64,000 nt of DNA from Salinadaptatus halalkaliphilus (GTDB lineage: Archaea; Halobacteriota; Halobacteria; Halobacteriales; Natrialbaceae), in NCBI RefSeq assembly GCF_006543045.1, contig NZ_RBZW01000012.1, forward strand, positions 1 through 64,000, in the 5' to 3' direction. Below are positions 18,703 through 28,084 of the stretch, piece after piece. Both the position numbers and the translations under genes were made by a program. Each line of letters starts with the position of its first letter. Positions within the stretch are counted from its first letter, which is position 1. The notes under the pieces are model-generated. The model had not been told where the DNA came from. It searched no databases and worked only from the letters and a program-made list of their open reading frames with translations.

Positions 18703-19308
18703 ATGCCACCGATTGCGTTGCCACACGACGCGAAAGCCGGTCCGACTAAGTCGGAGGTCCGGGCCGTCGTTCAGTCGAAACTGGCCCTCGAGGCCGACGA
18801 TCACTTCGCGGAGGTCGGTTCCTGTACCGGCGCGGTCACGATCGAGGCCGCCCAGCGGGCCGACCGCGTGACCGCCCTCGAACGCAAGGCCGAGCGCCTC
18901 GAGACGACCGAACAGAATCTCGCCGCAAACGCGGAGACGATTCGGGCCGACGTCGACCTTCGCAACACCGAAGCGCCCGAGGGGTTGCCGGCGGACGCCG
19001 ACGCGCTCTTTCTGGGCGGCAGCCGCAACTTCGAGGCCGTGCTCGATCACGCCGTCGAGACGGGTGTCGATCGCATCGTGATGAACGTCTCGCGTCTCGA
19101 GGTCGCAGGGCAGGCGACCGAGGCCTTCCGCGAGCGGGACATCCTCGAGGAGGTCGTCCAGTTTCAGGTGAGCCACGGCTACGAACTCGCGGGCGCGACG
19201 AGTTTCGATTCGCAGAATCCGGTCTACATGCTGGTCGGCAGTGCGACGAACGACGCAGACGGCGGCGCGACGGGAGCCGCGGACGGGAGCGGCGGTGAGG
19301 ACCGATGA
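18703..19308 (+). CDS. cbiT: Cobalt-precorrin C15-methyltransferase (decarboxylating)
   Basis: The 201-residue SAM-dependent methyltransferase acts in anaerobic cobalamin synthesis, methylating C15 and decarboxylating the C12 acetate of the cobalt-precorrin. It begins MPPIALPHDAKAGPTKSEVR, where the PTK.E motif is typical of CbiT. The SAM loop reads EVGSCTGAVTIEAA, and ADALFLGGSRNFEAVLDH is the conserved central block. The last 20 residues are a low-complexity acidic tail. The ATG at 18703 sits 27 bases after the TATA box. Its stop overlaps cbiL by four bases. Confidence 0.93.
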   Translation: MPPIALPHDAKAGPTKSEVRAVVQSKLALEADDHFAEVGSCTGAVTIEAAQRADRVTALERKAERLETTEQNLAANAETIRADVDLRNTEAPEGLPADADALFLGGSRNFEAVLDHAVETGVDRIVMNVSRLEVAGQATEAFRERDILEEVVQFQVSHGYELAGATSFDSQNPVYMLVGSATNDADGGATGAADGSGGEDR

Positions 19309-20129
19309 CGCTGTACGGCGTCGGTCTCGGCCCCGGCGAAGCCGACCTCGTGACCGTGCGCGGGAAGCGTGTGCTCGAGAGCTGCGACGTGGTCTACTCG
19401 CCGGGCCGCCTCTCTCGGAGTGTCGCCCTCGAGCACGTCGACGACTCCAAGATCGGCGAGGTCGACTTCCCGATGACCAGAGATGAGGAGAAACTGCGAG
19501 CGGCCTGGAAGGAAGCCGCCGCCGAAATCGCACCCACTGCCCGCGACGGCGACGCCGCCTTCGTCACGCTGGGGGATCCGAACGTCTACTCGACCTTTGG
19601 CCACCTTCGGCGGACGATCGACGCCTTCCACCCCGAGGTCGACCTCGAGATCGTCCCCGGTGTCAGCGCCGTGACGGCCTTCACGACGGCGATGGGCGTC
19701 GAGATCGAAGCCGGAGCCGGGCTCGCACTTCGGGAAGCCCCAAGCGGCGCGAGTCCGACGGGTCCCGATCGGCTGATCCTCTTCAAGGTCACCGACGCGC
19801 CGGCGACCCACGAGGGCCTCATCGAAGCCGGTTACGACGTAACGTACGGCCGCCGATTGTTCATGGTACAGGGTGACACGATCGTCACCGACGACCCCGC
19901 CGACGTCGACGAGCGGGATTACTACACGCTCGCCTACGCGGAGAAAGAAGATCTCGAGGTCGAACAGGCGACGGCAGCCTTCCAGCGAGATAGTGACACC
20001 GACTCGAGTGCTGACACGGAACTGCCCGATGGCGACTCGAACGGTGAGCCAGTGGCAGACGGCGGGAAGCTGGTTGCACTGGAGCGCGCGGAGGGCTGTG
20101 AACACGGCGACTGCGAGGGGCATCGATGA
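19305..20129 (+). CDS. cbiL: Cobalt-factor II C20-methyltransferase
   Basis: The 274-residue tetrapyrrole methylase transfers a methyl group from SAM to C20 of cobalt-factor II. Hallmarks are the start LYGVGLGPGEADLVTVRG, then FVTLGDPNVYSTFGHL, EIVPGVSAVTAFTTAMG and LILFKVTDAP. A variable acidic and His/Cys-containing tail closes the protein (CEHGDCEGHR), possibly a metal-binding tail as in some other haloarchaeal cobalt proteins. It overlaps cbiT upstream and cbiF downstream by ATGA, forming one operon. Confidence 0.94.
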   Translation: MTLYGVGLGPGEADLVTVRGKRVLESCDVVYSPGRLSRSVALEHVDDSKIGEVDFPMTRDEEKLRAAWKEAAAEIAPTARDGDAAFVTLGDPNVYSTFGHLRRTIDAFHPEVDLEIVPGVSAVTAFTTAMGVEIEAGAGLALREAPSGASPTGPDRLILFKVTDAPATHEGLIEAGYDVTYGRRLFMVQGDTIVTDDPADVDERDYYTLAYAEKEDLEVEQATAAFQRDSDTDSSADTELPDGDSNGEPVADGGKLVALERAEGCEHGDCEGHR

Positions 20130-20992
20130 CCGACGATAACGATCCCCAGGATGCGATCGACGCCCAGGGCGAGCGGCGGCGCGAGGATCTGGACGACCGG
20201 ATCTTCGACCACAGTGCCGGCGACGATCAGGAGGGGGTTCCCTTCGTCGGTGCCGGTCCCGGCAACCCACGCTTGCTCACCGTCGCCGGCAAGGAACTGC
20301 TCGAAGCGGCCGATCTCGTCGTCCACGCCGGATCGCTGGTCAACAGCGAACTCCTCGAGGCGTACTGTGATCACGCCGAACTGGTCAACTCCGTCGGGAA
20401 AGATCTCGAGGAACTGATTCCGCTGATGCGCGACGCCTACGAGGACGGCGAGAACGTCGTCCGGCTGCACAGCGGCGATCCCGCGATCTACGGGGCCGCC
20501 CTCGAGCAGATGGACGCCTTGGAGCACGAGGGCGTGCCGACCTACTTCGTCCCGGGGGTCACGTCCGCATTCGCCGCGAGCGCGACGCTGCGGACCCAAC
20601 TCACACTGAACGAGGTCTCGAATCACGTCGCCTTCACCCGACCCCAAGGCAAGACGCTGACTGCGGAGGAAGACCACATCTCCGAGTTCGTCGGGATGGG
20701 CGACGTGACGACCTGCATCTATCTCGGAACGCACGCCGTCCGCGACACGATGGATCGGCTGCTCGAGGACGGCCACGATCCGGAGACGCCGGTCGCAGTG
20801 ATCTATCACGCCTCGTGGCCCGACGAGGACGTTATCGTCGGCTCGATCGACGACGTTGCGGACAAAGTCGAGGACGCCGGCTATCGGGCCTCGGCGCTGG
20901 TCGTCATCGGCGACGCCGTGACCGGGGCGGGCTACGAACGCTCGTACCTCTACGGCGACTGGGCGAACCGCGGCAGCGAAAGCCCGGACTGA
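20126..20992 (+). CDS. cbiF: Cobalt-precorrin-4 C11-methyltransferase
   Basis: The 288-residue SAM-dependent tetrapyrrole methylase acts at C11 of cobalt-precorrin-4. The N-terminal 35 residues are an acidic haloarchaeal extension. The catalytic domain begins VPFVGAGPGNPRLLTVAGKE, with LVVHAGSLVN, VVRLHSGDPAIYGAALEQ, VPGVTSAFAASATL, FTRPQGKT and the end region VIYHASWPDEDVIVGSIDD. The expected next genes of the anaerobic pathway (cbiG, cbiH) do not follow; the next gene is a MinD-like fusion 80 bases on. The operon here is therefore only cbiTLF. Confidence 0.94.
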   Translation: MTDDNDPQDAIDAQGERRREDLDDRIFDHSAGDDQEGVPFVGAGPGNPRLLTVAGKELLEAADLVVHAGSLVNSELLEAYCDHAELVNSVGKDLEELIPLMRDAYEDGENVVRLHSGDPAIYGAALEQMDALEHEGVPTYFVPGVTSAFAASATLRTQLTLNEVSNHVAFTRPQGKTLTAEEDHISEFVGMGDVTTCIYLGTHAVRDTMDRLLEDGHDPETPVAVIYHASWPDEDVIVGSIDDVADKVEDAGYRASALVVIGDAVTGAGYERSYLYGDWANRGSESPD

Positions 20993-21072: not shown

Positions 21073-22380
21073 ATGATCGCCATCGCCGGATCGAAAGGTG
21101 GCTGTGGCACGTCCACAGTGACGCTCGGCCTCGCCGAGGCCTTCTCTCGGGTCGAGGCGCCGGTACTCGCCGTCGACGCCGACAGACAGCTACCGAATCT
21201 TCACGTCGTGACCGATCTCGAGCGGACGCCAACGCTTGCGGCGCTCGAGAACGACACCGACCTCAGAACGATCGCCCAGCAACACCCTCGAGAACCGCTC
21301 GCAGGCGTCGTTCCCGCGCCGAAACCCGAGCAGGCCGTCGGGTTCGAAACACTTGCGTCGAAACTCGACCACGACGGGCCGGAAGTGTTGCTCGATTGCC
21401 CCTCGGGTGCTGGGCCTGACGTGGTCGATCCGCTGGGACAGGCTGCGGGTGTGATCGTCGTCGCCGGCAGTACCGAACGGAGTCTGGCGGCGACCGAGAC
21501 GACGATCGAGATGGCTCGTCGTCTCGGAACACCGGTCTACGGTGCAGTTTTGAACAGGTGTACCGAGATTCCCGAGCGGGCACTCGCGTGGGATGGCGTT
21601 CCGTTGCTCGGGTGTGTCCCCGAGCGTCCCTCCCCGCTGGTCAACGACGAGGTCGCGTCAGCCTTCGACGATATCGTCACGGCCCTTCAGAATCAGTCGC
21701 CAACCGACCGGGCGCCGCCGGAGTACGCCGGCGAGTTGCTGCCGATCGGAACCGACGAACTCGACTACCGGCTCGGCGGGGGCGTCCCACCCGGTTCGCT
21801 CGTCGCGTTCGTCGCCGATCCCGCGAGCCAGGCCGAGCAGGTGCTGTATCGGGCGACTGGGGTCCGCGGAACGCTGTATCTCTCGAGCGAACGAACGCGA
21901 GCTAACGTTCGCCGGGCGATCGAATCCAGTACGGTCGCCACCGCAGTTCCGACGGTCAGACGCGTCGCCGGTGAGGACGCTCTCGAGGAAGCGCTCGCGT
22001 TGATCGACAAACTGCCGGACGCGGCGAACGTCATCGTCGATCCGATCGACGCGTTCGAGCGCCGCGACCGGGCGGCCTACGTCTCCTTTCTCGAGGCCTG
22101 TAAGGAACGAGTGGTCGAGACCGAAAGCGTCGCCATCGTTCACTGTCTGACCGACGATCCACCACACCGATCGGCGACGCTGCGGGCTGCCGACGCCGTG
22201 TTCGAACTCAAGACGGCTGCCGGCCAATCCAGCGACGACACGACTCGTGTCGGTACCGGCGCCTACTCCCTCTCGATTCCAAAGTACCGACCGGGAACCG
22301 CAGTGACCGACGGCGTGATAATCGATCTCGACAGCGGTCCAATGTCGGCACCCGTCCAGTCCCCGCTCGAGTCCGATTGA
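21073..22380 (+). CDS. MinD-like/RecA-like fusion protein with degenerate P-loops
   Basis: The 435-residue protein has two modules. Residues 1-220 follow the ParA/MinD fold (MIAIAGSKGGCGTSTVTLGL, AVDADRQLPNLHV, EVLLDCPSGAGPD). The deviant Walker A keeps the signature Lys, but the P-loop Lys of GKT/S is Thr. Residues 235-435 resemble a KaiC/RecA-like domain (LPIGTDELDYRLGGGVPPGS, then VAFVADPASQAEQVLYRATG), again without a usable GKT. The family is known to me only as an uncharacterised haloarchaeal HTR-like protein. It starts a run of five genes with almost no spacing (next start two bases after its stop). A scaffold or regulatory role for the intact MinD at 25082 is inference. Confidence 0.75.
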   Translation: MIAIAGSKGGCGTSTVTLGLAEAFSRVEAPVLAVDADRQLPNLHVVTDLERTPTLAALENDTDLRTIAQQHPREPLAGVVPAPKPEQAVGFETLASKLDHDGPEVLLDCPSGAGPDVVDPLGQAAGVIVVAGSTERSLAATETTIEMARRLGTPVYGAVLNRCTEIPERALAWDGVPLLGCVPERPSPLVNDEVASAFDDIVTALQNQSPTDRAPPEYAGELLPIGTDELDYRLGGGVPPGSLVAFVADPASQAEQVLYRATGVRGTLYLSSERTRANVRRAIESSTVATAVPTVRRVAGEDALEEALALIDKLPDAANVIVDPIDAFERRDRAAYVSFLEACKERVVETESVAIVHCLTDDPPHRSATLRAADAVFELKTAAGQSSDDTTRVGTGAYSLSIPKYRPGTAVTDGVIIDLDSGPMSAPVQSPLESD

Positions 22381-22382
22381 CC

Positions 22383-23546
22383 ATGACCGGATTGCCATAC
22401 GACATCCTGATCGCGGTCGCCTACGGCCTCCTCGCTGGGTTCGTTCCTGCAGTGGGAACCGGTCTGGCTGCAATCGGTCTCGGACTCGCACTGGATCGCC
22501 AGCTCTCACTTGCCGTCGGGGCAATCGCGACGGCCTGCCTCGCGGTTGCGACGACGCTGGCTCTCGGCGTCATCACTCTCGAGTCGGGGGGACGGACGAT
22601 ACCACAGCTCCTCAGCATCGCGAGCCTCGCGGTCGGCCTCGGCCTCGTCGCGACGAGCCAGGGCAACCAGATCGCAACCAGCGTCCCTCGAGACCGACGC
22701 CACACGTTCGTGAGCGGGCCGACGCTCACCGCCGACGCCATCGATGCCGTCGACGCCGTCGGACAGGTGACGATCCGTCCGTCGGGACCGATCCGCGAAT
22801 TCGACGGCTATCCGTCCGTCCCAGCGACCCTCGAGTATCGTCTCGAATCCAGTAGCTGGCGACTCCCTGCGGACCTCCAGCTATCGGCACTCGAGTCCCG
22901 TCTCGAAGCGCGACTCCGCACGAATTACGACCTTGCCCGGACCGACGTCTCGATCGACGGCCGCGGGAGGGCGACGATCACTGCGGCTCCACCGACGGCA
23001 AGCCTCGCGAGCGGTCTCGACGCCGGAACGCGGGCTGTTACTCTCTCCGGACTGCTCCCGGCAGGACTCGCGGGCGGCGACGTCGTGTCGATCGTCACGG
23101 AAGATCGACAGATTCGGGCGGACGTACTGGCGGTCGGCAACAGGCCGGTCGAACGCGACACGAACGCCGAGATCACCGATACCGCCGAAACCGATCGCCC
23201 ATGGGCTGGTCGTGGCATCGTCGGTGGCCCTGGTCAACTGACGGTCGCCGTCGAAACGACCGACGCCAGCGCGTTGCTCGAGACGAGTGACTACCGTATC
23301 TTCGTCCGACCGAGTGGCGACGATCACGAGTTCGAAGCGGCGACGCTGCTGGCGGCCGCGGGCAAACCGATGAGAACGATTACTGATGGCGACCCGCCCG
23401 ACGAAGAGACGCTCGCGGTCGAGCGAGACGGTCGCTGGCAGCTCGCGACTGGGGATTCCGGGGCTGCAACCGGCGACAGTGACGATTACGGCGATATCGA
23501 TCGAGCGTTCGTTGTCGGTCCCTCGGCGGGGGCGAGCGATCGATGA
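22383..23546 (+). CDS. Membrane protein with beta-rich RCK_C/TrkA-C-like region, first of two paralogues
   Basis: The product has 387 residues. Three hydrophobic segments occupy about residues 5-95 (LIAVAYGLLAGFVPAVGTGL, SLAVGAIATACLAVATTLAL, LLSIASLAVGLGLVATSQ). The soluble part has a block LESRLEARLRTNYDLARTDV matching IERQLTADYDIDYTDV in the next gene, so the two are paralogues. Repeated beta segments resemble RCK_C (TrkA-C) ligand-binding domains, and such proteins are often annotated as potassium transporter TrkA, but no Rossmann NAD domain or TrkH partner is present. Translationally linked to its neighbours. Function unknown. Confidence 0.65.
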   Translation: MTGLPYDILIAVAYGLLAGFVPAVGTGLAAIGLGLALDRQLSLAVGAIATACLAVATTLALGVITLESGGRTIPQLLSIASLAVGLGLVATSQGNQIATSVPRDRRHTFVSGPTLTADAIDAVDAVGQVTIRPSGPIREFDGYPSVPATLEYRLESSSWRLPADLQLSALESRLEARLRTNYDLARTDVSIDGRGRATITAAPPTASLASGLDAGTRAVTLSGLLPAGLAGGDVVSIVTEDRQIRADVLAVGNRPVERDTNAEITDTAETDRPWAGRGIVGGPGQLTVAVETTDASALLETSDYRIFVRPSGDDHEFEAATLLAAAGKPMRTITDGDPPDEETLAVERDGRWQLATGDSGAATGDSDDYGDIDRAFVVGPSAGASDR

Positions 23547-24709
23547 TCGATGTCGTCGCGCTCTGGGAGCTAGCCCGAACCGTCGCAATCGGAACTGTGG
23601 GATCGGGACTGCTCGCGGCAATCGTCGGCGGGTTCGTCGCCGGCTGGTATCGCTCGCGGACGAAACGAGCGCCGCCGGCCGGAACCGTACCGATGATCGG
23701 GCTCGCTGCGGTGACGGGCTACTGGCTCGTCGTCGCCGCCACCACGGGCTCGATCGTTCCCGGCGCACCACTCGAGCACCAACTCAGCGCAGGCATGCTA
23801 CTCGCGACGGTGGCAGTCGCCGGAGTCGCTGGGACGGTCGGCGGTCGCTTCGTCGATCGACTCGCGTGTCAGGTCGGTGAGATCCCGCGACTCGAGGCCG
23901 ATGGTGAGCCAGCGGCCGCAGTCCGCGATGCGAGACTCGCCGTTTCCCTCGAGTTGCCGGCGACGATCGACGACGCCGAGGGATATCGGCCGGTGGACGA
24001 GTCGACGACACGGCGACTCTCGGGCACGACGATCGAATTACCACACGCGCTCTCGATCGACGAACGTCGTGACCGGATCGAGCGCCAACTCACGGCCGAC
24101 TACGATATCGACTACACCGACGTGACGATGGCCGAGGACGGCACCGTCGATCGGGTTCTCGTCGGTCGCCACGCGCCCGGTCTGGGAACGACGGTACCAC
24201 CGAAGACCGTCGGCGTGGCGATTCGCGCCGAATGCCCGTCCGAGGCGAGCCTCGGCGATTCGGTCGAAATCTGGTCGACTGCAGCGGGCGGTCGGTTGCT
24301 CGCGACCGGGACACTTCGTGCGACCGACGGGTCGATCGCGACCGTCGTCGTCGACGCCGACCGCACACCCGCTCTCGCGGACGACGAACGGTATCGGCTG
24401 GTGACGCGGCCGGCCGGGCCGACCGGCGGCTACGAGTTCGCGTCGACGCTTCACGCGCTCGAGGCGACGGTCAGCACGATCACGGTCGAACCCGACGGCG
24501 ACCTCGTCGGCGAGTTCGTCGGCTGGCTTCCCGGGCGCGTTCTCGTGATCGATCGGGACGACGACCTTCTCGCCGTCCCGGAGACGAACGAACCGCTTCG
24601 GGCCGGCGATACGTGTTGGGTACTCGCACACCCCGACGAACTGACCGATTTCGATCCCACGACGCCGGCCGTCGAATCGGGTCACGAACCACCACAGACG
24701 GCCAACTAA
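23543..24709 (+). CDS. Membrane protein with RCK_C/TrkA-C-like domains, second paralogue
   Basis: The 388-residue product overlaps the previous gene by ATGA. There are three predicted membrane helices at about residues 5-35, 50-70 and 83-103 (TVGSGLLAAIVGGFVAGWYR, VPMIGLAAVTGYWLVVAATT). A cytoplasmic part follows with the paralogous block DRIERQLTADYDIDYTDVTM. The C-terminal segment VLVIDRDDDLLAVPETNEPL followed by AGDTCWVLAHPDEL is a convincing RCK_C fold signature, as in TrkA C-termini. It could sense a ligand and signal to, or anchor, the MinD-type ATPases encoded either side. That coupling is inferred from gene order only. Confidence 0.68.
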   Translation: MIDVVALWELARTVAIGTVGSGLLAAIVGGFVAGWYRSRTKRAPPAGTVPMIGLAAVTGYWLVVAATTGSIVPGAPLEHQLSAGMLLATVAVAGVAGTVGGRFVDRLACQVGEIPRLEADGEPAAAVRDARLAVSLELPATIDDAEGYRPVDESTTRRLSGTTIELPHALSIDERRDRIERQLTADYDIDYTDVTMAEDGTVDRVLVGRHAPGLGTTVPPKTVGVAIRAECPSEASLGDSVEIWSTAAGGRLLATGTLRATDGSIATVVVDADRTPALADDERYRLVTRPAGPTGGYEFASTLHALEATVSTITVEPDGDLVGEFVGWLPGRVLVIDRDDDLLAVPETNEPLRAGDTCWVLAHPDELTDFDPTTPAVESGHEPPQTAN

Positions 24710-24716
24710 GCAACCG

Positions 24717-25085
24717 ATGGTAACACTCGAGACGAGCGTCGTTCGGACGAACGGCGTGACGACCGTCCGTGTAGTGATCGATAACCAGCACTCGACCCAC
24801 CAGGCCGTTCGCCTACAGAGCACGCTCGAGGGGCCGGTCTGGCCACCGCGACGCGACGGCGTCGTCGACCCGCAGTGGGACGGCGACATCTGGGACGGAA
24901 CGATCCGATCGGGCCGAACTCGAGGGATCGGTTTTGCGAGTCCGGCACCACCGACCGATCCACCGGTCGACATCGTCTCGAGCGACCGTCTCGAGGCCGA
25001 CGACCTGAAACGATCGCCAGGCGAGATACTCGCTGCGCTCGATGGCTGGCGGCCGAGCAACGAGGTGCTCGAGTCCGAGCGATGA
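24717..25085 (+). CDS. Small conserved haloarchaeal protein in the MinD-like operon
   Basis: The 122-residue soluble protein begins MVTLETSVVRTNGVTTVRVV, with a beta-sandwich-like pattern (VVIDNQHSTHQAVRLQSTLE), a Pro/Trp-rich centre (GPVWPPRRDGVVDPQW) and SPAPPTDPPVDIV. No catalytic motif, signal or membrane helix is visible. Its stop overlaps the start of the intact MinD gene by four bases (ATGA). I recall similar small proteins always beside MinD in haloarchaea, which suggests a dedicated partner, but no function is known to me. Confidence 0.7.
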   Translation: MVTLETSVVRTNGVTTVRVVIDNQHSTHQAVRLQSTLEGPVWPPRRDGVVDPQWDGDIWDGTIRSGRTRGIGFASPAPPTDPPVDIVSSDRLEADDLKRSPGEILAALDGWRPSNEVLESER

Positions 25086-25804
25086 TCGTCGCCGTTGCTG
25101 GCGGAAAAGGCGGCGTTGGCAAGTCGACGACGGCTTGGAATCTCGGCTTCGAACTCGAGGCGGTCGTCGTCGACGCCGATCTGTCGACGGCCGATCTCCC
25201 GCCGGGATCCGGCCCGAATCTCCACGATGTCCTCGCCGGCTGCGCCGACCCGACCGAGGCGACCGAGACCGTCAACGCGGTGTCGGTCCTGCCGTGTGGC
25301 CGAACGCTCTCGGGCGCCCGAGCGGCCGCGATGGACGAGCTTCCCTGGGTGCTCGAGCGCCTGGAGCGGGCGTACGATCGCGTCGTGGTCGACTGTCCGG
25401 CGGGGGTAGCCCGTGATGTCGGTACCGTCTTGCGGGCAGTCGACCTCGCCGTGCTCGTGACGACTCCCGAGCGGGCGGCGCTGGTGGATTGCTGTCGGAC
25501 GGCGAATCTCGCCGATTCGCTCGAGACGCCGGTCGCCGCGCTCGTCCTGAATATGGCCGATCGGGCGCGACACGGGTCGATCGCCGACCGACTCGGGCGG
25601 CGGTTAGGCGTCGGCGTGACGATCGTCGACTCCCAGCCGGTGGTCGCCGATGCACAGGCACGCTGGCTGCCGGTTCGGACCCACGGGGCCAACGCGCAGG
25701 CGGTATCGGCGTTTCGATCGGTCGTCGACCGGCTCGAGGATGCGATGGAGAGACACATGCGCCGGTCTGGCGCTGCTTGGTCGTCCCGCCGACGCACATC
25801 GTGA
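25082..25804 (+). CDS. MinD/ParA-family ATPase
   Basis: The 240-residue P-loop ATPase has an intact deviant Walker A MIVAVAGGKGGVGKSTTAWN, with both signature and P-loop lysines. It also has a switch I region VVVDADLSTADLPPG and Walker B-like YDRVVVDCPAGVAR. MinD-family ATPases dimerise with ATP on membranes or DNA and position cellular machines. The recognisable C-terminal amphipathic membrane-targeting helix is weak (VDRLEDAMERHMRRSG). It ends the five-gene unit starting at 21073. It is probably the energy-using member, because the fusion protein at the front has lost its P-loop lysine. Not a plasmid ParA: no ParB gene or centromere repeats are nearby. Confidence 0.85.
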   Translation: MIVAVAGGKGGVGKSTTAWNLGFELEAVVVDADLSTADLPPGSGPNLHDVLAGCADPTEATETVNAVSVLPCGRTLSGARAAAMDELPWVLERLERAYDRVVVDCPAGVARDVGTVLRAVDLAVLVTTPERAALVDCCRTANLADSLETPVAALVLNMADRARHGSIADRLGRRLGVGVTIVDSQPVVADAQARWLPVRTHGANAQAVSAFRSVVDRLEDAMERHMRRSGAAWSSRRRTS

Positions 25805-25872: not shown

Positions 25873-26724
25873 ATGATCGACGAGACGGTCGAGGAGATTC
25901 AGGAGATGCAGACACACAGCTCCTCGGTGGTCGCCGTGAACGCGACCCGCGCCCTCGAGGAACTGCTCGAGCGGGAGTTCGCGACGGTCGAGGAGTACGA
26001 GCGATCGCTCGAGCGAAACGGCACGGTGCTCCGGCGGGCCAATCCGTCCCACGCGTCCTTACAGAACGCTGTTCGAGGCGTCGTCGAGGACATCGCAGAG
26101 ACCGATCACGACACGGTCGAAGCTGCGAAAGAACACACCGCAGAACGGATCGATGCCGTCGTTGCCCGCGTCGAGTCGGGCAAGACTCTCGCTGCCGAGG
26201 CCACCGCCGAGTACCTCGAGGACGGCGTGACGTTGCTGACTCACGACTACTCTTCGACGGTGCTCGAGGCGCTCGAGGTCGCGACCGAAGCGGGCAAGCA
26301 GTTCGAGGTGTACGTCACCGAAGCCAGGCCGCGGTATATCGGCCGCAAGACGGCCCGCGAACTCGCAACCGTCGAGGGCGTCGAGACGACGATCATCACC
26401 GACAGCGCACACGGCTACTATCTCGAAGAGTGCGATCGCGTTCTCGTCGGTATGGATTGTATCGTCGACGAGACGCTGTACAACCGCGTCGGGACGTTTC
26501 CGATCGCCGCGACCGCGGCCCAGCTCGAGGTGCCGGTGACGGTCGTCGGATCGGCGTCGAAACTCGTCGACGACGGCTTCGTCTTCGAAAACGAGTTTCG
26601 ATCGAGCACCGAGGTAATGCTCGAGCCCGCCGAAGGATTTGGCGTGAAAAACCCCGCCTACGACGCGACGCCGGTCGAGTTGCTCGAGAGCGTCATCACT
26701 GACGAAGGTCGTCGGGAGCTGTAG
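25873..26724 (+). CDS. eIF2B-family protein, probable ribose-1,5-bisphosphate isomerase-like
   Basis: The 283-residue member of the eIF2B alpha/beta/delta and sugar-phosphate isomerase superfamily starts MIDETVEEIQEMQTHSSSVV. Conserved blocks are VTLLTHDYSSTVLEALEVAT, YVTEARPRYIGRKTAREL, GMDCIVDETLYNRVGTFPIA and a C-terminal NPAYDATPVELLESVITDEG. In archaea such proteins act in the AMP/pentose bisphosphate route as ribose-1,5-bisphosphate isomerase. Others are annotated as translation initiation factors. It starts 68 bases after minD, so co-transcription with that block is possible. Confidence 0.85.
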   Translation: MIDETVEEIQEMQTHSSSVVAVNATRALEELLEREFATVEEYERSLERNGTVLRRANPSHASLQNAVRGVVEDIAETDHDTVEAAKEHTAERIDAVVARVESGKTLAAEATAEYLEDGVTLLTHDYSSTVLEALEVATEAGKQFEVYVTEARPRYIGRKTARELATVEGVETTIITDSAHGYYLEECDRVLVGMDCIVDETLYNRVGTFPIAATAAQLEVPVTVVGSASKLVDDGFVFENEFRSSTEVMLEPAEGFGVKNPAYDATPVELLESVITDEGRREL

Positions 26725-26794
26725 ATCGTCATCGTCGCCGGACAGTCACTGACTCGTGGCGACAACCTATCCCGGTCTCCGGTGTAGACGGGGT

Positions 26795-28084
26795 ATGCGT
26801 CTCGTTCAGGTGTTCGTGCCCGCGGGTGAACTCGAGCTCGTTCTCGAGACGATCGAGGATGCCGGCGTCGACTACGCCGTTGCCGAGGAGACGAGCCACG
26901 ACGAGTTCGAAGCGGTCGTCTCGATTCCGGTCCCACCGGCTGCCGTCGAACCGCTGCTGTCGGCGTTTCGCGACGCCGGACTCGACGACGACTCCTACAC
27001 GATCGTGACGGCCGCCGAGACGATCGTCTCGGATCGAACCGACGACCTCATCGGCCAGTTTTCCGGGACGCGGATCTCTCGAGAGGAACTCCAGTCACGA
27101 GCGATGGATCTCGCGCCGGCGGCGTCGACGTACTACGTGTTGCTCGTCGTCAGTACGATCATCGCGACGGCCGGCCTGTTGCTCGATTCGGCGGCGACGA
27201 TCATCGGTGCGATGGTCGTCGCGCCGCTGATGGGGCCGGCGCTCGCGGCGAGCGTCGGTGTCGTCGTCGACGACGACGAGCTCGCGACGCGGGGCGTGAC
27301 GCTCCAAATCGTCGGACTTCTCGCGTCGGTGGCGACGGCGGCGGTGATCGGCTGGGTGCTCAGGGGAACGGTCTTGCTCCCGCCGGGGTTCGACATCACG
27401 ACGGTCCCCCAGATCCAGGAGCGAATTACCCCGAACGTGTTGGCGCTGTTTCTCGCGTTGGGATCGGGGATCGCGGGCGTCGTGAGCCTCGTGCGCAACG
27501 TCGGCTCGGTCCTCGTCGGCGTCGCGATCGCGGTCGCGCTCGTGCCGCCGGCGGCGACGGCCGGCCTCGGCATCGCCTGGGGCCACCCGACGGTCGTCGT
27601 CACCGCCGGGACGCTCGTGCTCGTCAACCTCCTCTCGATCAACCTGACCGCGCTGTTGGTACTGTGGCTCTCCGGCTACCGGCCCCACCGAGGGGCGAGC
27701 GTCGAGCGGGTCTACGGCCGTCTCCGGTCGCGCGTCGTCGTTCTCTTGGTCGCGATCGCCGTACTCTCGCTCGTCCTCGGGGCCGTCACCTACGGCACCT
27801 ACCAGACTGCGTCGGTCGAACACGACGTCCAGACCGAACTCGAGTCGATGAGCGACGACCCCGTCTTCGCCGAGTTGCAGTTCCGAGCGGTCGGTGTCGA
27901 CTACGAACTGATCGACATCTATACCGGTGACGTGCCATCAGTCACCGTTCTCGTCGAACGGCCGCCCGGCCAGCAAGAACCGCCCGACTTCGCCGAAAGC
28001 GTTCGCGAACGTCTCGAGGCCGCGACGGGCCACGATCTCGACGTGGCCGTCGAACTCGTCGATACGCAACGCAGCGAATCGTGA
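26795..28084 (+). CDS. TIGR00341/DUF389 membrane protein
   Basis: The 429-residue protein has a cytoplasmic ferredoxin-like N-terminal domain (MRLVQVFVPAGELELVLETI) and about seven hydrophobic helices between residues 120 and 345. The DUF389 hallmark IIGAMVVAPLMGPALAASVG is followed by GSGIAGVVSLVRNVGSVLVG and VALVPPAATAGLGIAWG. A C-terminal periplasmic-type alpha/beta domain closes it (LQFRAVGVDYELIDIYTGDV). The family is widespread in haloarchaea and actinobacteria. The transported substrate, if any, is not known to me. The ATG at 26795 gives the normal family start. Confidence 0.9.
   Translation: MRLVQVFVPAGELELVLETIEDAGVDYAVAEETSHDEFEAVVSIPVPPAAVEPLLSAFRDAGLDDDSYTIVTAAETIVSDRTDDLIGQFSGTRISREELQSRAMDLAPAASTYYVLLVVSTIIATAGLLLDSAATIIGAMVVAPLMGPALAASVGVVVDDDELATRGVTLQIVGLLASVATAAVIGWVLRGTVLLPPGFDITTVPQIQERITPNVLALFLALGSGIAGVVSLVRNVGSVLVGVAIAVALVPPAATAGLGIAWGHPTVVVTAGTLVLVNLLSINLTALLVLWLSGYRPHRGASVERVYGRLRSRVVVLLVAIAVLSLVLGAVTYGTYQTASVEHDVQTELESMSDDPVFAELQFRAVGVDYELIDIYTGDVPSVTVLVERPPGQQEPPDFAESVRERLEAATGHDLDVAVELVDTQRSES

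Follow-up and report, generated by a model that had tools for sequence, protein, structure and literature searches.

Results

Layout and conservation of the five-gene unit

We analysed a five-gene unit in the haloarchaeon Salinadaptatus halalkaliphilus, which lies within positions 1 to 64,000 of contig NZ_RBZW01000012.1 (the whole 64,000-nucleotide stretch is hereafter the window). In order along the plus strand, the unit encodes a MinD3-type protein fused to DUF7125 (gene 1, 21073..22380), two membrane proteins (gene 2, 22383..23546, and gene 3, 23543..24709), a DUF7857 protein (gene 4, 24717..25085) and a MinD1-type protein (gene 5, 25082..25804). The intergenic gaps are 2, −4, 7 and −4 bases. 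An initial annotation, made from the sequence and its open reading frames, had described five same-strand genes with this spacing; we reproduced the coordinates and gaps, and a codon-model gene caller returned the identical five open reading frames. Genes 1–5 are probably co-transcribed.

The order recurs, with similar gaps, in G077, G005, G141, Halopiger djelfimassiliensis (L134) and a Natrialbaceae metagenome-assembled genome (MAG; L135). G141 is the only carrier from another family. This recurrence in five other genomes, one of them of another family, argues that the order is not due to chance. Conservation of order had been proposed as a check on the unit, and the outcome was mixed: the order is kept in six genomes, including a member of another family that additionally carries an mcm-linked MinD1, but in most haloarchaea the genes equivalent to gene 1 and to genes 4–5 occupy two separate loci. 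In other genomes, MinD3–DUF7125 stands tail to tail with DUF7857–MinD1, and in G058, G079, G050 and G089 the membrane pair is also near this tail-to-tail arrangement. The PADLOC models for anti-phage defence gave zero matches among the five proteins, and a defence system was rejected on this basis.

Genes 4 and 5 encode DUF7857 and MinD1

Judged from its tree position, synteny and motif, gene 5 is MinD1 (HVO_0225 family). It groups with Haloferax MinD1 and apart from MinD2, MinD3 and MinD4 (support 97/99), and its motif, GGKGGVGKST, retains both lysines and conforms to the deviant Walker A motif of MinD/ParA proteins, xKGGxGK[ST]. Its score against the archaeal MinD model TIGR01969 is 110.7 bits, under the curated cut-off of 201.75. 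Haloferax genomes other than Haloferax volcanii stood in for that species (best DHFR identity 93%), and the HVO numbers given here follow from gene order and published anchors; within Haloferax, K16 and D117, the residues mutated in published work, marked out MinD2, and protein length marked out MinD4. Like genes 4–5, the published MinD2–HVO_0596 operon of H. volcanii joins a haloarchaeal MinD to a partner gene (PMC11588486), but that pair affects shape and motility, and identity with it was ruled out because MinD2 forms a separate clade in the tree.

Gene 4 matches DUF7857 (PF25256; E = 6e-24, 85.4 bits against a gathering cut-off of 27). Its model (mean predicted local distance difference test score (pLDDT) 71) is a predicted beta-sandwich with weak fold matches, none below an E-value of 1e-3. 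DUF7857 is a partner gene of MinD1: across 145 haloarchaeal genomes, a MinD1-type gene lies within 2.5 kb at 103 of the 107 places where DUF7857 occurs. Outside the window's family, most of the loci read are arranged as mcm–DUF7854–(DUF7504)–DUF7855–DUF7856–DUF7857–MinD, facing a TFB-like gene that was named from its sequence and not by Pfam. Haloferax has five genes between mcm and tfb, fitting HVO_0221 to HVO_0225; in H. volcanii, MCM is HVO_0220 (PMC3972481), MinD1 is HVO_0225 (PMC11621097) and TFB is HVO_0226 (PMC7714728), and the number HVO_0224 for DUF7857 follows from the gene count. Genes 4–5 share clade and order with this pair. They differ in that the Haloferax pair lies between mcm/DUF7854–7856 and tfb and has a longer DUF7857, whereas the pair in the window is joined to MinD3 and the two membrane proteins. 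No paper naming DUF7125 or DUF7855–7857 was found in the literature searched, which comprised open-licence papers.

A further MinD/ParA-like gene lies past tfb and DUF7858 at L098 (3714-4454) and other mcm/tfb loci. Its motif, GATGGAGATR, lacks both motif lysines, and the gene is conserved at the MinD1 locus in many haloarchaea.

Gene 1 encodes MinD3 fused to DUF7125

On the evidence of Pfam, NCBIfam and the tree, gene 1 is MinD3 (HVO_1634 family) fused to DUF7125. Its MinD-type matches in Pfam and NCBIfam span approximately residues 1–223, with the MinD3 part itself taken to end near residue 215, and residues 224–416 match DUF7125 (PF23442; E = 8e-34, 116.9 bits against a gathering cut-off of 29.1), here a KaiC/RecA-like domain without a P-loop. 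The gene had been described as a degenerate MinD/RecA fusion; MinD is indeed fused to a second domain, but that domain is DUF7125 and its RecA/KaiC likeness is weak. The N-terminal half groups with Haloferax MinD3, apart from MinD1, MinD2 and MinD4 (support 100/99), and scores 63.4 bits against TIGR01969, under the same cut-off of 201.75. The trees thus place in the unit two of the four MinDs known in haloarchaea, MinD3 and MinD1. These identities had been overlooked in the initial annotation, which labelled genes 1 and 5 simply as MinD-type.

Elsewhere gene 1 is usually split into adjacent MinD and DUF7125 genes. The Haloferax locus has the order dph2–f25–YlbF–MinD–DUF7125–f29–FKBP; because Dph2 of H. 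volcanii is HVO_1631 (PMC8305020), the gene order identifies the MinD of this locus as HVO_1634, MinD3, and gene count gives HVO_1635 for DUF7125. Gene 1 holds both of these domains and falls in the same clade; it differs in being one fused gene where Haloferax has two, and in the loss of the P-loop lysine in the window's lineage.

In the gene 1 motif, GSKGGCGTST, the signature lysine is kept and the P-loop lysine is replaced by threonine at residue 13. Consistently with the initial reading, only the last MinD of the unit has the P-loop lysine. Every listed fused or split MinD3 copy retains this residue except that of the window (GCGTST) and a decayed copy in G064; the MinD3 of MAG L135, a close relative, also lacks it. 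Loss of the P-loop as a trait of the MinD3 family was ruled out, as the lysine is present in the other copies read, and the "degenerate" P-loop is therefore a recent change in one lineage. Nor need it mean loss of function, since the equivalent K16A change in H. volcanii MinD2 had a mild effect or none on motility (PMC11588486, PMC11621097).

Three further loci bear on these genes. MAG L135 (5568-10255) has a window-like neighbourhood in which threonine replaces the P-loop lysine in both MinD1 (GVGTST) and MinD3. On contig C1 of G064, near 543410-544419 (L106), the N-terminal half of MinD3 is followed almost immediately by the C-terminal half of MinD1; an IF-2B-family gene follows this remnant, as it follows the unit in the window, and the genome lacks DUF7857, the membrane pair and DUF7311. 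In the Haloferax genome G040 (C3:31611-32245), the match to MinD3 is broken into two parts that lie in different reading frames, pointing to a frameshift or a sequencing error.

Genes 2 and 3 form a membrane pair with RCK_C-like features

The two middle proteins had been called paralogues, and so they proved, although distant ones (~26% identity, E ~1e-5). They co-occur in nearly every locus fetched. Gene 2, assigned to this family from its sequence and neighbourhood, has no Pfam match; gene 3 scores 19.5 bits against TrkA_C, under the Pfam cut-off of 27. The TrkA-C-like regions ascribed to both proteins were thus recovered in gene 3, below threshold, and not in gene 2. The AlphaFold2 model of gene 3 (mean pLDDT 75, predicted template modelling score 0.34) shows three long N-terminal helices followed by alpha/beta domains. 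The three N-terminal helices proposed for both proteins are accordingly predicted by a model for gene 3 and read from the sequence for gene 2.

The best fold matches of the gene 3 model, itself of modest confidence, are the RCK_C domains of KhtT, BusR, MthK and TrkA (E 3e-3 to 5e-2, none below 1e-3; probability near 1). A profile of gene 3 relatives gave only weak matches to MthK (E ~0.5) among PDB sequences. Gene 3 differs from these regulators in its three-helix membrane anchor without a pore, its low identity and its sub-cut-off score, and Pfam identified no pore domain (Ion_trans_2 or similar) in gene 2 or gene 3. The matched KhtT and BusR structures were solved with cyclic di-adenosine monophosphate (c-di-AMP), a nucleotide reported in H. 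volcanii (PMC6741144). Genes 2 and 3 probably have a ligand-sensing role. A literature search on RCK_C domains in haloarchaea found nothing relevant.

The gene 3 tree has two sides, each with a support of 100. On the window's side (16 rows), 11 loci have pilus-locus genes, 3 have the MinDs only, 2 have neither and none has a channel. On the other side (23 rows), a potassium channel (Ion_trans_2/TrkA_N) or a ThiS-type (SAMP1-like) gene is present at 20 loci and pilus genes at none. A HerA-type gene lies within the same 17 kb in 12 of 13 named membrane-pair loci. In Natrinema and relatives (L038, L040, L041, L139, L143, L144, L146), two genes for CDC48-like double AAA ATPases flank the membrane pair.

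The unit tracks a type IV pilus locus

DUF7311 (PF23993) marks a locus with the order DUF7382–HerA–DUF7310–DUF7311–PilB–PilC, followed by DUF7283, DUF7285 and DUF7284 genes. PilB was identified by a T2SSE match, and PilC was named by position and length, with no Pfam match. Of the genomes, 104 have DUF7857 together with DUF7311, 37 have neither and 4 have one of the two (agreement 141/145, phi 0.93); DUF7857 was found in 105 genomes by Pfam search, and a protein search gave the same number. Against DUF7311, phi was 0.88 for MinD1 and 0.81 for MinD3, their presence being called by score thresholds, and 0.33 for the whole gene 2–3 superfamily. As a specificity control, the archaellum marker ArlH gave a phi of 0.16 with DUF7857. 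By this measure the core of the unit appears to track the pilus locus more than the archaellum; an archaellum association was rejected, and the case for a motility role in general is weak. Several genera hold both states, and DUF7857 and DUF7311 switch together. Two copies of DUF7857 (Pfam) occur in G058 and G141 alone, and the same two genomes, and no others, have DUF7311 in two strong copies.

Gene neighbourhoods agree with the co-occurrence. The unit adjoins DUF7382–HerA–DUF7310–DUF7311 (PilB, PilC) in G077, G005, G141 and Halopiger djelfimassiliensis, and in G120, G052, G085 and G046 the membrane pair, pilus genes, MinD3–DUF7125 and DUF7857–MinD1 lie within ~20 kb. The unit of G141 is next to its own DUF7382–HerA–DUF7310–DUF7311–PilB–PilC block, and its MinDs group with those of the window in the trees, which points to the unit and the pilus locus having moved as one; an mcm-linked MinD1 and another pilus locus are also present in this genome. 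The pilus link, absent from the initial annotation, thus emerged from co-occurrence and synteny, and these comparisons make the pilus assignment of the unit well supported. We consider it probable, with considerable room for doubt, that the unit serves the DUF7310–DUF7311–PilB–PilC type IV pilus specifically, as a MinD-type module for its control and positioning.

Several observations weigh against this assignment. The pilus locus of the window's genome is complete but lies on another contig (C42). Pilus-clade genes 2–3 are missing from most haloarchaea that carry the DUF7311 pilus, which makes the membrane pair an accessory at most. MinD1 has mcm and tfb rather than pilus genes as neighbours in most haloarchaea. 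Five genomes carry MinD3 without DUF7311, and genus g32 (G036, G037, G049, G099) keeps DUF7857 and the DUF7311 pilus without MinD1 or MinD3; DUF7857 may therefore act with this pilus without a MinD. Finally, the co-occurrence statistics ignore kinship and take the archaellum as the one control machine, other pilus systems standing outside the comparison.

Upstream of the unit (window positions 18703-20992) are two tetrapyrrole methylase genes and a methyltransferase-like gene, and downstream (25873-28084) are an IF-2B-family gene and a gene for a DUF389 membrane protein. None of these looks part of the unit.

Discussion

Proposed mechanism and alternative explanations

In the pilus control module that we propose, MinD1, with DUF7857 as adaptor, would cycle with ATP and thereby place or switch the pilus machine. 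MinD3–DUF7125 would add a further ATPase level, in which the MinD is combined with a KaiC-like domain that has no P-loop. A complex of the gene 2 and gene 3 proteins may anchor the MinDs at the membrane, and its RCK_C-like domains may sense a small ligand, either a cyclic nucleotide such as c-di-AMP or an ion, to which pilus assembly would then answer. These biochemical steps are conjectural. A more specific version is tentative, and we hold it as doubtful: genes 2–3 would form a heteromeric membrane RCK_C-like receptor that senses c-di-AMP or a similar ligand and recruits MinD1–DUF7857 and MinD3–DUF7125, through which a dedicated type IV pilus machine would be positioned or switched, the cassette being able to travel with the pilus locus between haloarchaeal families. 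The candidate receptor proteins are related to the pair found beside a potassium channel in the sister clade.

That relationship, together with the RCK_C-like fold of gene 3, would also suit a membrane ion-gating or osmosensing device, built on a channel or transporter that genes 2–3 form or regulate, with the MinDs as nucleotide switches. We regard this as unlikely, because neither protein has a pore domain, a channel neighbour occurs in 0 of 16 rows of the window's clade and the MinD parts track a pilus. Potassium gating by genes 2–3 is thus unsupported for their clade, which lies on the pilus/MinD side of the tree and away from the potassium-channel side. Of the initial picture of a membrane-anchored, nucleotide-driven positioning or gating device, the gating part is unsupported; what finds support is a unit that is linked to the membrane, driven by MinD and probably fitted with a ligand-sensing part.

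It is somewhat less probable still that the unit is a replication, cell-cycle or transcription module, in which MinD1 would go with mcm and tfb and the unit would link these to the membrane. The position of MinD1–DUF7857 between mcm and tfb in most haloarchaea read would favour it. However, deletion of all four minD genes in H. volcanii left division and growth unaffected (PMC11588486), the MinD1–DUF7857 pair is absent from 40 of 145 genomes although mcm is expected in all, and the pair moved with the pilus locus in G141.

Equally improbable, in our estimate, is that, in the window's lineage, the unit is losing its tie to the pilus and degenerating, leaving a copy with little or altered function. 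The lost P-loop lysine of gene 1, its loss from both MinDs in the close MAG L135 and the truncated MinD3–MinD1 remnant, without DUF7311, in G064 would all fit such decay. Yet all five frames in the window are open, the genome retains a complete pilus locus on another contig, and the equivalent K16A change in MinD2 is mild or without effect on motility.

Positioning of archaella and chemotaxis arrays, suggested by the motility effects of MinD2 and MinD4 in H. volcanii (PMC11588486, PMC11621097), is very unlikely: besides the low phi of the archaellum marker, the archaellum is missing from 18 genomes that have both DUF7857 and the pilus, it is present in 25 of 37 genomes lacking both, and motility of the quadruple minD deletion is no worse than that of the minD2 minD4 double deletion (PMC11621097).

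Relation to known systems and implications

The pilus control module that we favour belongs to a general kind that is already known. FleN/MinD-like ATPases have been predicted to control various archaeal pili; their genes often stand apart from the pilus loci or next to those of unrelated membrane proteins, and the same work noted that archaeal pilus loci can have TFB and KaiC-like neighbours (Makarova et al. 2016, PMC4858521). Our unit resembles these regulators in having MinD ATPases with a predicted role in pilus control, which in their case are sometimes encoded with membrane proteins. It differs in specificity: the prediction is general, and the text consulted links the DUF7311 pilus locus by name to neither MinD1, MinD3 nor the RCK_C-like pair. 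No tie of MinD1 or MinD3 to pili was found in the literature searched (open-licence papers), which is weak evidence. As the initial annotation had supposed, no described system with this five-gene composition was found in that literature. The unit is real and conserved, and its composition and pilus assignment appear new.

For H. volcanii, published roles in shape, motility and positioning belong to MinD2 and MinD4 (PMC11588486, PMC11621097). MinD1 and MinD3 have no described role, and their co-occurrence with DUF7311 offers a specific and testable one; it likewise gives a candidate role for DUF7857 and DUF7125. If the pilus assignment is true, MinD-type spatial control in haloarchaea would reach pili, beyond archaella and chemotaxis arrays, and the membrane pair may connect a small-molecule signal to pilus control.

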